This document shows, piece by piece, positions 5,149 through 47,158 of a stretch of 64,000 nucleotides of DNA. Within the stretch, counting starts at the first letter, position 1. Each line of letters starts with the position of its first letter. The notes under the pieces were generated by a model, which did no database searches, had not been told where the DNA came from, and saw nothing but the letters and a program-made list of their open reading frames with translations. Source of the DNA: Muribaculaceae bacterium (GTDB taxonomy: Bacteria > Bacteroidota > Bacteroidia > Bacteroidales > Muribaculaceae); NCBI GenBank assembly GCA_017621845.1, contig JAGASI010000024.1:1-64000 (forward strand), in the 5' to 3' direction. The translations under genes and the position numbers were made by a program.

Positions 5149-5910
5149 ATGGTTAAACCGGCAGTGACATATTTTCTCAGTGACTTGCATTTAGGAGCAA
5201 CCTATATGTCTGATGAGCGTGAGCACGAGCGTCGGGTTATCGATATGCTTAAAATGATGTCCCATGATGCACGTACGGTCTATCTGTTGGGTGACGTGCT
5301 TGATTATTGGTTTGAGTACCGCACAGTAGTGCCTCGTGGTCATGTGAGATTCTTTGGACAGCTTGCCTCAATGGTTGATTCTGGAATTGAGGTTTATTGG
5401 TTTGCCGGAAATCATGATATATGGTTGTTTGACTACTTGTCCCAAGAGCTTGGTGTAAAGGTTGTGGATGGTACGGTAATAAAAGATATCGACGGCGTCA
5501 AATTCTTTCTTGGTCATGGCGATGGTATTGGAGATACTTCGCGTGGATTTAGAATTATACGGTCAATTTTCCGTAATAAAATATGCCAGAAGCTCTTTTC
5601 GGCAATACATCCCCGTTGGACAGTCCCATTTGCTTACCGTTGGAGCCGACATTCACGTAAGGTCAGAGGTGGAGGTGTGGCAACTTATGGTGGTGATGAC
5701 AATGAACCTCAGATGAGATTTGTGAAGGAATATAGCCTCAAGCATCCGGATATCAGGTACTATATCATGGGTCATCGACATGTTTTTGTAAATCGGCCTG
5801 TTGGTAATGGCGCCAACCTCATTATTTTAGGGGATTGTTTTAACCAATATACTTATGCCCGCTGGGATGGTCAAAATCTATCACTTGAACATTTTGACAC
5901 AACAGAGTGA
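5149..5910 (+). CDS. lpxH: UDP-2,3-diacylglucosamine diphosphatase LpxH
   Basis: Hydrolyses UDP-2,3-diacylglucosamine to lipid X and UMP in lipid A synthesis, at the cytoplasmic face of the inner membrane. The calcineurin-like metal sites are all visible: SDLHLG (Asp12, His14), LGDVLDYW (Asp49), AGNHD (Asn88, His89), LGHGDG (His123) and MGHRH near residue 205. The length of 253 is normal. It starts two bases after the stop of the DUF59 gene. Some Bacteroidetes carry further LpxH-like phosphoesterases, so this could be a paralogue, but the pattern fits LpxH well. Confidence 0.88.
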   Translation: MVKPAVTYFLSDLHLGATYMSDEREHERRVIDMLKMMSHDARTVYLLGDVLDYWFEYRTVVPRGHVRFFGQLASMVDSGIEVYWFAGNHDIWLFDYLSQELGVKVVDGTVIKDIDGVKFFLGHGDGIGDTSRGFRIIRSIFRNKICQKLFSAIHPRWTVPFAYRWSRHSRKVRGGGVATYGGDDNEPQMRFVKEYSLKHPDIRYYIMGHRHVFVNRPVGNGANLIILGDCFNQYTYARWDGQNLSLEHFDTTE

Positions 5911-6061
5911 AATCTTTACAAATTTTAACACAGGGTAAATTTATAGCCTTAAGTCCTTGGTTGGTTGGTTAATGAATTGATTATTAGATTGTTGGATTTT
6001 GGTTTTTGGGGAATGACATAAGGAGTGTTTTAAAAACATGCTTTATAACATAAAAAAATAT

Positions 6062-6092
6062 TTTGCACAATGTCACATAAGCAGTACCTTTG
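6062..6092 (+). promoter_or_regulatory. Promoter of the candidate small RNA
   Basis: TTTG at 6062-6065, a 19-base spacer and TACCTTTG at 6085-6092 form an almost ideal Bacteroidetes housekeeping promoter. It is the same arrangement as at the tRNA gene (7951-7981). No protein start follows before the terminator at 6181. Confidence 0.8.
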
Positions 6093-6097
6093 TACCG

Positions 6098-6181
6098 CAA
6101 ACCTAAAACAATCTTTTTTACCTTAGAAATTGTACCTATTGGAAACCTATAAGAAGGGCCTCTGTGATAGAGGCCCTTTTT
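6098..6181 (+). ncRNA. Candidate small RNA, about 84 nt
   Basis: A stand-alone unit lies between the promoter at 6062-6092 and an intrinsic terminator (arms 6154-6163 and 6169-6178, loop GTGAT, then a T-run). The body contains four ACCTA or ACCTT motifs at 6101, 6120, 6134 and 6145, and a possible CAAT/ATTG pairing across 6108-6132. There is no start codon with a meaningful frame. I do not recognise it as 6S, RNase P, SRP RNA or tmRNA, all of which are longer. The start is estimated from the promoter. Confidence 0.6.
6154..6181 (+). terminator. Intrinsic terminator of the candidate small RNA
   Basis: AAGGGCCTCT and AGAGGCCCTT form a perfect 10-bp stem with a five-base loop, directly followed by T residues. 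It lies about 245 bases after the lpxH stop, so it may also catch lpxH read-through. Confidence 0.9.
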
Positions 6182-6312
6182 ATGATATATCACTCTTATG
6201 CCGAATGATGTGTCGGGTAAATTGGTCTCCTGCTTAGTCGGTCTTTGTCTAACGGTATGGTGGTGAACTTTAACAAATTTTGTCGGATTTTGCACTGCTG
6301 AGTCCATTATAA

Positions 6313-6344
6313 TTTGTGACTATTGACAAGTTTTATTAATTTTG
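6313..6344 (+). promoter_or_regulatory. Promoter of the LysE-CBM9 operon
   Basis: TTTG (6313-6316), 20 bases, then TAATTTTG (6337-6344). The predicted start near 6351 leaves a leader of about 45 bases before the ATG at 6396. Confidence 0.7.
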
Positions 6345-7950: not shown

Positions 7951-7981
7951 TTTGTTGAATAAAAATAAAGTTATACCTTTG
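7951..7981 (+). promoter_or_regulatory. Promoter of tRNA-Glu
   Basis: TTTG (7951-7954), a 19-base spacer, and TACCTTTG (7974-7981). The tRNA begins 17 bases after the -7 box, leaving a short 5' leader for RNase P. Confidence 0.85.
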
Positions 7982-7998
7982 CAATCACAAAACAGTAA

Positions 7999-8074
7999 GG
8001 CGCATTAGTGTAGAGGCCTAGCACGCCGCTCTCTCAAGGCGGAGACTCGGGTTCGAATCCCGGACGCGCTACCA
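7999..8074 (+). tRNA. tRNA-Glu (anticodon CTC)
   Basis: A 76-base cloverleaf with encoded CCA. The D stem is GTGT/GCAC, the anticodon stem CCGCT/GGCGG with loop CTCTCAA places anticodon CTC, the variable loop has four bases as is normal for tRNA-Glu, and the T arm is TCGGG-TTCGAAT-CCCGG. The acceptor stem has one A-C mismatch at pair 6-67 and a G-T at 1-72. It reads the GAG codon, supplementing a TTC-anticodon tRNA expected elsewhere. Confidence 0.93.
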
Positions 8075-8077
8075 TCC

Positions 8078-8104
8078 ATCCCGGTCATCGACCGGGATTT
8101 TTTT
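8078..8104 (+). terminator. Intrinsic terminator after tRNA-Glu
   Basis: ATCCCGGT and ACCGGGAT pair perfectly around a CATCG loop and are followed by six T. It begins four bases after the CCA end. Confidence 0.93.
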
Positions 8105-45005: not shown

Positions 45006-45942
45006 AGAATTCAGACAGCAGTGGGAAGATAGCCGTGATTTTATAATAGCTCATACTTCGGGATCTACAGGCGTGCCCAAGGAGATACGTCTGCTCAAGG
45101 GTGATATGGTCGCTTCAGCCAAGGCTACCAATCGATTTTTTGGTATTGGTCATAATTCCAGCCTTTTATGTCCGTTGTCATTGGATTATATTGCAGGTAA
45201 AATGATGGCAGTGAGAGCCATAATTGCCGGCTGTGAAGTGAAATTTCAGCCGCCGTCGCGACAGATTGAGGTCAGAAGGTGTGACCTGTTGGCTATTGTC
45301 CCGGTCCAATGTGAGAGCTTCTTACAACAATATACCCCCGATGTCAAAGCAGTGATAATCGGTGGTGCCAGGCTTTCGCCTACGGTATCGACGCGACTCA
45401 TCGAGATGGGGGTCAATGCCTATGAGACCTATGGCATGACTGAGACCTGTTCTCATGTGGCATTAAAAAAAGTAGGGACTCAATATTTTGAGGCAATGCC
45501 CGGAGTGACATTCACGACAGACTCGAGAGGATGCCTTGTGGTGAATGTCCCTGGAATGTCAATCAGGCATGTTGTGACCAATGACATTGTTGATTTAGTA
45601 TCGTCAACTAAGTTTGATTGGATTGGACGTGCTGATTTTGTTATAAACTCAGGAGCAGTCAAAGTTCACCCCGAGCAGATAGAAGCTCAGATGCGCGCTA
45701 CACTTGACCGTGATGTCCCCTTTTATGTTACGGCACGTGAAGATTTCCGCTGGGGACAGCGCCCGATTGTAGTTACTGACGATCGGGATGCTGTCGAGTC
45801 GTTGACCCGGGCCATTTGCGCTATAGATGATAAAGTCAAGCGCCCCGACGGCGTGGTGACCGTCAGGACGCTCATGTATGGTGATAATAGTAAAATCAAA
45901 AGGTTGCCTTTATCAGAATTGGAAGTTATCCAAACTTACTGA
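44995..45942 (+). CDS. menE: MenE, o-succinylbenzoate-CoA ligase (compact form)
   Basis: An AMP-forming ligase that makes o-succinylbenzoyl-CoA. The ATP loop HTSGSTGVPKE is near residue 22, the YGMTETCSH motif near 143, and the GRADFVINSGAVKV hinge near 211. At about 315 residues it is much shorter than typical MenE (450-490), missing most of the large N-terminal domain before the ATP loop, as is usual in Bacteroidetes. The ATG at 44995 overlaps the menC stop by 11 bases. Its 3' end overlaps the convergent regulator gene by 17 bases. Confidence 0.9.
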   Translation: MTFEEFRQQWEDSRDFIIAHTSGSTGVPKEIRLLKGDMVASAKATNRFFGIGHNSSLLCPLSLDYIAGKMMAVRAIIAGCEVKFQPPSRQIEVRRCDLLAIVPVQCESFLQQYTPDVKAVIIGGARLSPTVSTRLIEMGVNAYETYGMTETCSHVALKKVGTQYFEAMPGVTFTTDSRGCLVVNVPGMSIRHVVTNDIVDLVSSTKFDWIGRADFVINSGAVKVHPEQIEAQMRATLDRDVPFYVTAREDFRWGQRPIVVTDDRDAVESLTRAICAIDDKVKRPDGVVTVRTLMYGDNSKIKRLPLSELEVIQTY

Positions 45943-46624
45943 TCTTTTTCAATGCCTGCTCGTTGATAATCTTGATGCGTCGCCCGTCAACGAGGATTAT
46001 TTTTTCATTTACAAATGCCGAGAGGGTGCGTATGGCGTTGGATGTAGTCATGTTGGAAAGGTTGGCAAGGTCCTCGCGTGACATAAATATATTGATGGTC
46101 ATGTTATCATCCTCATATCCATAGTTGGCCAATAGAGCTATCAGAGCCTCGGCAAGACGGCCACGTATATGTTTCTGGGTGAGATTGACGATGCGTGTGT
46201 CTGAACCACCGAGATTGTGAGAGAGCTCTGAGATGAAGAACCATGCCAACTTCATGTTGTTGTTAATCATTTCCTTGACAAGCGACATAGGAAGAGCCCC
46301 CATTGTTGAAGCCTCAAAGGCACATGCACTCGACATGTGAGGCTCCTCGGCAAAGGCTGCTCGGTAACCAAAGTACTGTACCGGCCGCATCAGGCGTATT
46401 ATCTGTTGGCGGCCTCCAACTCCATCCTTAAATATTTTTACCTTGCCTTTGAGAAGACACCATAGATGTTCGGCATCATCGCCTTGGGCATAGATTATCT
46501 GGTTTTTCTTAAAATGTTGTATGTTGAAGTTGTCGATGACAAGACGACGTTCGTCTCCATCGAGCACCGACCATATATCGGCCATGTCATCGTTTATGAC
46601 TTTTTCGAGAGCAGCTTTAATCAT
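45926..46624 (-). CDS. Crp/Fnr-family transcriptional regulator
   Basis: A 232-residue regulator with an N-terminal cyclic-nucleotide-binding-like domain (about 20-130; GDDAEHLWCLLKGKVKIF near 48-65) and a C-terminal winged helix (about 155-225, MSREDLANLSNMTTSNAIRTL). The residues that bind cAMP in Crp are not conserved, nor are Fnr-type cysteines at the N-terminus, so the ligand is unknown. It is convergent with menE. A TACATTTG at 46798-46791 may be its -7, giving a leader of about 160 bases. Confidence 0.9.
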   Translation of the reverse strand: MIKAALEKVINDDMADIWSVLDGDERRLVIDNFNIQHFKKNQIIYAQGDDAEHLWCLLKGKVKIFKDGVGGRQQIIRLMRPVQYFGYRAAFAEEPHMSSACAFEASTMGALPMSLVKEMINNNMKLAWFFISELSHNLGGSDTRIVNLTQKHIRGRLAEALIALLANYGYEDDNMTINIFMSREDLANLSNMTTSNAIRTLSAFVNEKIILVDGRRIKIINEQALKKISKFG

Positions 46625-47158
46625 TATATTACCGTTGCCTTGGTGAAAGTTATGAGTGTAATTATAGGAAATGGAAACCTGTTGGAAAGATGTTGCTTGA
46701 TAACATAGTGTGACATGTATTTATCGCAAGTTAGAGAAGGGACGATATATAACGATAAATAACTGCTGTAAGATTATGTTGAACAACATGCAAATGTAAT
46801 AAAAAAAATTAAAATAGCACCCGGATATATGAAAAATCCGAAAAAAGAGACAATAATTATCCATTCAGGATAATTGTCAGCTTTTTGCCTCGTCATAAAG
46901 TTTTATTGGATAGTTATATTGTAAATGTAAAAAAAATGGTTTTTATTTTTTTTGTCACGGCAAAGCTATACGTTGTAGGTCAGCGTATTAATATATGATT
47001 GTGCGATTGTTCCGACAATAAAACGACGAGCCGATATTTTAGTCAATCGATACGCACATTAAGCATGGACTACGATAGGATGTAATTATTTAAGAGCCTT
47101 CCCACCTTAGACAATAACATCAATTGTATGTGATTATGGTATGTGGTACAGCCCTTGA
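46625..47158. other. Long AT-rich intergenic region with a near-palindrome
   Basis: This 534-base gap contains the putative promoter of the Crp-type gene, two hairpin-forming sequences (CGGAT/ATCCG at 46822-46840 and AATTATCC/GGATAATT at 46855-46875), and A- and T-runs. From about 46980 to 47158 I see no gene or terminator. Confidence 0.5.

Follow-up and report, generated by a model that had tools for sequence, protein, structure and literature searches.

A BTnc060-related small RNA gene of Bacteroidales with a Cur-type operator and a candidate SulP target in Muribaculaceae

Introduction

In the papers surveyed, few small RNAs (sRNAs) of Bacteroidota are described together with both their regulator and their target. 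MasB (BTnc201) of B. thetaiotaomicron, an sRNA of about 100 nt that is described as narrowly conserved and that targets BT_1675, is the one shown there to be activated by Cur (PMC10994844). Cur is described as a master regulator that governs how carbohydrates are used and the gut is colonised (PMC3878776, PMC6989115). The sRNAs of the 14-member multicopy FopS family use a 5′-end seed to repress the mRNAs of transporters at the translation start (PMC11697453). BTnc060 is listed as an sRNA in Rfam (RF04184, model length 213 nt), and a search by this name in the paper collection used here found nothing.

Here we analysed positions 6062–6181 of a 64-kb stretch of Muribaculaceae DNA (hereafter, the window), which a first-pass annotation had described as a complete promoter–terminator unit without a protein gene. 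CyaR and Spot 42 are CRP-controlled sRNAs of enterobacteria, and the window sRNA would resemble them in being controlled by a CRP-family regulator and in adjusting transport under sugar limitation; it differs from them in phylum and in regulator ligand, and a sequence relation is not expected. With BTnc060 it shares a homologous core, a GTGA-loop terminator and the character of an autonomous intergenic gene, but the 5′ half of the long RF04184 model corresponds to the operator and promoter in the window. Like MasB, which pairs near the 5′ region of its target mRNA (PMC10994844), it has an upstream Cur-type site; going by the description of MasB, the two differ in that MasB is narrowly distributed and acts on BT_1675, whereas the window sRNA is order-wide and has another candidate target. 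It has in common with GibS and FopS (PMC7366714, PMC11697453) an unfolded RNA with single-stranded seeds, a terminator, and predicted pairing with translation-start regions, often those of transporter mRNAs, but it is nearly always present in a single copy and carries two internal ACCU seeds.

Results

A putative independent transcription unit

The unit is made up of the following elements.

6062–6065, + strand: −33 element TTTG of a sigma-ABfr-type promoter (sequence and promoter-pattern scan)
6085–6092, + strand: −7 element TACCTTTG (promoter-pattern scan; kept in homologues)
6098–6181, + strand: putative small RNA of ~84 nt (conserved core, match to covariance model R1 at 6098–6189, BTnc060 homology)
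6156–6181, + strand: intrinsic terminator hairpin and U tract (fold; compensatory changes in 9/9 counted pairs, 44 homologues)

The near-perfect promoter noted in the first-pass annotation was borne out as an exact Bacteroidota promoter, TTTG-N19-TACCTTTG, at 6062–6092. Such promoter matches occurred 5 times in the 64 kb, compared with 1.39 expected from shuffles. The terminator, called perfect in the first-pass annotation, is a strong one; it reads GGGCCTCT-GTGAT-AGAGGCCC-TTTTT and has a stem (6156–6163 with 6169–6176) followed by TTTTT at 6177–6181. With its 5′ end predicted from the promoter and its 3′ end from the terminator, the putative transcript had a minimum free energy of −27.8 kcal/mol, against a shuffle mean of −13.2 (z −4.9; 0/200 shuffles as low); almost all of this stability comes from the terminator, and the remainder of the RNA is nearly unpaired. 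The repeated ACCT motifs were recovered as four copies, at 6101, 6120, 6134 and 6146. An alignment of 44 diverse homologues showed the copies at 6120 and 6134 to be invariant or nearly so, the copy at 6101 to be largely retained, and the copy at 6146 to be variable. The architecture also matches that of the transcription unit of a nearby tRNA, as originally observed: a stand-alone tRNA-Glu (CTC) unit with its promoter at 7951–7981, the tRNA at 7999–8074 and a terminator at 8078–8098 has the same layout.

A conserved reading frame was absent on both strands across 142 loci. Coding for a protein or leader peptide was rejected: no sense ORF is shared by these loci, and the 107-aa ORF that the window has on the antisense strand is open by chance, the median open run across the 142 loci being 29 aa. 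The gene has its own promoter and an intrinsic terminator and is free of a conserved ORF, as expected of a trans-acting base-pairing sRNA.

Distribution across Bacteroidales

A pattern scan of public genomes located the core in at least 120 named Bacteroidales contigs; among the matches listed were Bacteroides, Phocaeicola, Mediterranea, Xylanibacter, Hoylesella, Barnesiella, Coprobacter and others. BLAST searches found the sRNA in 61 of 99 related genomes. When we applied a covariance model (R1) built from 44 diverse copies, the sRNA was detected in 53 of 393 genomes sampled across the order, representing at least 15 families and almost always with one copy per genome. Among 296 genomes sampled from the whole phylum, R1 matched only genomes of Bacteroidales. 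The terminator stem showed covariation: 89.5% of cells were paired, versus 70% in shuffles, and double changes numbered 74, versus 19. Two further observations concern copy structure: two sRNA copies were seen in one genus (genomes G383 and G443), with single copies elsewhere, and one homologue (L143:6340–6450) carries tandem ACCTTA/ATACCTA motif blocks, reminiscent of a duplication of the seed region.

Single consensus matches do arise by chance, but the order-wide conservation of core, operator and terminator makes a fortuitous juxtaposition of promoter and terminator, devoid of function, hardly credible. This comparison of genomes establishes the gene and its conservation throughout the order. 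The promoter, the ACCT motifs and the terminator, whose conservation in relatives was to decide the matter, are all kept across Bacteroidales while no frame is, which supports the initial proposal of an sRNA unit without a protein gene. It is thus very probable that positions 6062–6181 are a genuine gene for a small regulatory RNA, one predicted to be expressed here.

The unit lies between lpxH (5149–5910) and a LysE-type gene (from 6393). Its neighbours vary by clade: besides lpxH they include a 229-aa gene in Bacteroides and elsewhere a 579-aa gene, among others, and the gene downstream may point either way. This difference between clades argues for an autonomous, trans-acting RNA. That the element is instead a 5′ leader, attenuator or riboswitch of lysE is very unlikely: it does share a strand with lysE and precedes that gene by ~210 nt, but the gene that follows it varies among homologues and often has the opposite orientation, the terminator is strong, an alternative conserved stem was not found, and a separate promoter-like match at 6313–6344 precedes lysE. 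We rejected the leader reading because the neighbours are not conserved. The match at 6313–6344 (TTTG..TTAATTTTG) is a further TTTG-N-TAnnTTTG pattern and is possibly the lysE promoter.

A Cur-type operator and a probable Cur orthologue

A palindrome directly precedes the −33 box, and a gene for a CRP-family regulator is present elsewhere in the window.

6037–6052, + strand: Cur/BT4338-type palindromic operator CATGCTTTATAACATA (12/14 specified bases of the consensus; fixed offset in homologues)
45926–46624, − strand: CRP/FNR-family regulator, probable Cur (BT4338) orthologue (PF00027 and PF13545)
46775–46790, − strand: Cur-like palindrome preceding the CRP-family gene, candidate site of autoregulation (pattern scan)

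The consensus reported for Cur/BT4338 is wwwTATGTTnTAnAACATAwww (PMC3878776, PMC6989115). The palindrome is CATGCTTTATAACATA in the window, TATGTCGTAAAACATA or similar in relatives, and GATGTTATAAGACATG in Bacteroides. The match in the window, at 12/14, is not perfect; at least 11/14 was reached in about 145 of 158 unique homologues, nearly always 73–75 bases before the AATCTT of the core, and in 2.2% of shuffled upstream DNA. Counted from the predicted start near 6098, the centre of the site falls at about −53. The operator is in this way established by comparison, and it would place the sRNA promoter under the control of Cur, which is predicted to bind there.

The genome encodes two proteins with a PF13545 (Crp-type HTH) domain, one of which is the product of 45926–46624. 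Cur-like sites occur upstream of most orthologues of this gene, and the palindrome at 46775–46790 is consistent with the reported autoregulatory site of BT4338 in Bacteroides (PMC6989115/PMC3878776). From its family and its own Cur-like site, the gene is a probable Cur orthologue; it adjoins a menC/menE-like gene pair. Across the 393 genomes of the order, the sRNA was found in 49 of 60 with a close Cur homologue (at least about 54% identity) versus 4 of the 333 others, a statistic (Fisher p 9e-47) that is confounded by shared ancestry; in 11 genomes with a close Cur homologue the sRNA was not detected.

Relation to BTnc060

At the gathering thresholds, Rfam reported only the nearby tRNA and nothing at the sRNA, in line with the initial impression that no known RNA family was evident. 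That impression did not hold in an E-value search, in which the covariance model RF04184 (BTnc060) gave a significant match of 60.3 bits (E 6.5e-9) covering 5989–6183. This score lies below the gathering score of 228.9 bits, so that the element is a BTnc060 homologue and not a member as Rfam defines the family. Residue by residue, the alignment with BTnc060 follows AAAACAAUCUUU..UUACCUUA..UACCUAUUG and the terminator with its GUGA loop, and the core AAAACAAUCUUUUU-ACCUUA ... AUACCUAUUG plus terminator is common to the window element and BTnc060. Among ten sources tested, the RF04184 threshold was passed by loci of B. faecis, B. congonensis and B. finegoldii and failed by clear homologues, namely Phocaeicola, Coprobacter, Hoylesella and Barnesiella-type loci and the relatives of the window; three loci that pass it (L105, L122 and L124) carry the same core. 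As judged from these alignments, the window sRNA is a divergent BTnc060 homologue that stands outside the family as Rfam draws it. The matches to STnc430, sroB, NrrF and other Rfam families were weak, not clearly separable from chance, and were set aside.

The Cur-type site and the −33/−7 boxes fall within the 5′ half of the RF04184 model. This half may represent a longer BTnc060 isoform or promoter DNA included in the model, and we favour the latter. Were the functional RNA longer, like the 213-nt model, it would start well upstream and the palindrome and the TTTG/TAnnTTTG boxes would be transcribed. The coverage of 5989–6183 by RF04184 speaks for such an RNA, as does the weak conservation beyond the palindrome in Bacteroides, to about −100 from the AATCTT anchor. 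In Muribaculaceae, however, conservation starts at the palindrome and is at background level 5′ of it, and the conserved part consists of a Cur-type operator and −33/−7 boxes whose spacing is fixed, which is what promoter DNA should look like; we consider the longer RNA improbable. The short transcript from near 6098 is the preferred form, and these results suggest that the limits of RF04184 are too narrow and that its model extends too far at the 5′ end.

SulP mRNA as a candidate target

Candidate targets were sought by combining seed patterns with the leaders of orthologous genes. Two segments of the sRNA came to serve as seeds.

6113–6126, + strand: seed A, UUUUUUACCUUAG region (mostly single-stranded; near-invariant; complements 13/42 SulP leaders)
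6128–6141, + strand: seed B, AAUUGUACCUAUUG region (UACC invariant in the alignment; complements 16/42 SulP leaders)

In the discovery step, occurrences of AAGGTAAA near an AUG in the genome of the window were ranked by duplex energy. The top rank went to the leader of a SulP permease (PF00916), CTAAGGTAAAAATATG, in which 12 nt are complementary to UUUUUACCUUAG. SulP orthologues were then fetched regardless of motif, and their leaders were found to carry, at varying places, AGGTACAATT or AATAGGTACAA (complementary to seed B) or AAGGTAAAAAAGA (complementary to seed A). The longest exact complement to the sRNA averaged 10.05 nt in 42 Muribaculaceae SulP leaders versus 6.17 nt in 334 other leaders (p 1.5e-19). 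Since SulP had first been picked by a motif search in the genome of the window, the copy from that genome was excluded from the control test, in which a complement of at least 9 nt was present in 31 of 41 SulP leaders, compared with 1, 1 and 0 for the sense, reversed and complement-only controls (mean lengths 6.4–6.6 nt). With 500 shuffled sRNAs, the mean against SulP leaders was 6.16 nt (sd 0.32, maximum 7.56). The median distance from the end of a site to the AUG is 11 nt, and leader identity is otherwise low (0.42); a 9-nt match was lacking in 11 of the 42 leaders. Comparison of leaders thereby establishes the complementarity, and the ACCT-centred seeds, complementary to AGGT-containing SulP start regions, lend support to the earlier suggestion that the ACCT motifs could pair with AG-rich targets.

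When six gene families with enough members were compared, only SulP stood out. Genome-wide pattern searches of 297 genomes of the family met SulP again in other genera; scans by seed pattern partly returned the antisense strand of the sRNA itself. As a general target, the cur mRNA was rejected: 3 of 30 cur leaders had a site of at least 9 nt, and there was no family-wide signal. Exact complements of seed B were also seen in other start regions, those of a clpX-like gene (L334), a signal-peptide protein (L338), a transporter-like membrane protein (L343), cur in one genome (L344) and an EamA-like protein (L345), and these may be lineage-specific targets.

The same complementarity was not seen in five SulP leaders from outside Muribaculaceae, which points either to a lineage-specific target or to an incomplete model. 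One could accordingly read the element as a conserved sRNA with a Cur-type operator for which SulP is not the true target. It would then act on different mRNAs, or its unpaired ACCU repeats would serve to titrate a protein. The SulP leaders of other families, which are without complementarity though the sRNA is conserved there, fit this account, as do the good sites in single leaders of other genes (L334, L343 and, for cur, L344). Against it, the complementarity in Muribaculaceae is antisense-specific, whereas a motif bound by a protein should recur in the sense orientation, and it involves two seeds and falls at the start region; we hold this account to be unlikely. Apart from selection for pairing, little would account for the repeated use of two distinct seeds where translation of a single gene begins, and we retain SulP mRNA as the candidate target.

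Discussion

Taken together, we consider it likely that 6037–6181 is a complete, independently transcribed trans-acting sRNA gene, orthologous to BTnc060, that is activated by Cur, pairs with SulP mRNA and blocks its translation. In the proposed mechanism, Cur would bind the palindrome near −53 and activate the sigma-ABfr-type promoter, most likely under sugar scarcity, and RNA polymerase would make an RNA of ~84 nt that is largely unpaired save for the terminator. Its two ACCU-centred seeds would pair with AGGU-containing start regions of targets, and such pairing over the ribosome-binding region is expected to block ribosome loading, so that regulation would be negative in sign. The best-supported target in Muribaculaceae is the mRNA of the SulP-family (PF00916) anion permease, of which less protein would be made when sugars are scarce. 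Precedents exist for both halves of this scheme: MasB for an sRNA of B. thetaiotaomicron that Cur activates and that works by pairing (PMC10994844), and the FopS sRNAs for repressing transporter mRNAs where translation starts (PMC11697453).

On a wider scale, we lean towards an order-wide riboregulator wired to Cur, with two interchangeable ACCU seeds and targets that gain and lose sites quickly, which would control SulP in Muribaculaceae and for which the 5′ half of RF04184 is promoter DNA. The BTnc060-like kind of sRNA was already known; new here are the Cur-type operator at a fixed place, the regulator Cur and the SulP target, the last two of which we infer from sequence. The study of this sRNA thus yields a named operator, two seeds and one candidate target, all of which are testable. 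If the proposed scheme is true, it would link Cur to post-transcriptional control across many gut genera.
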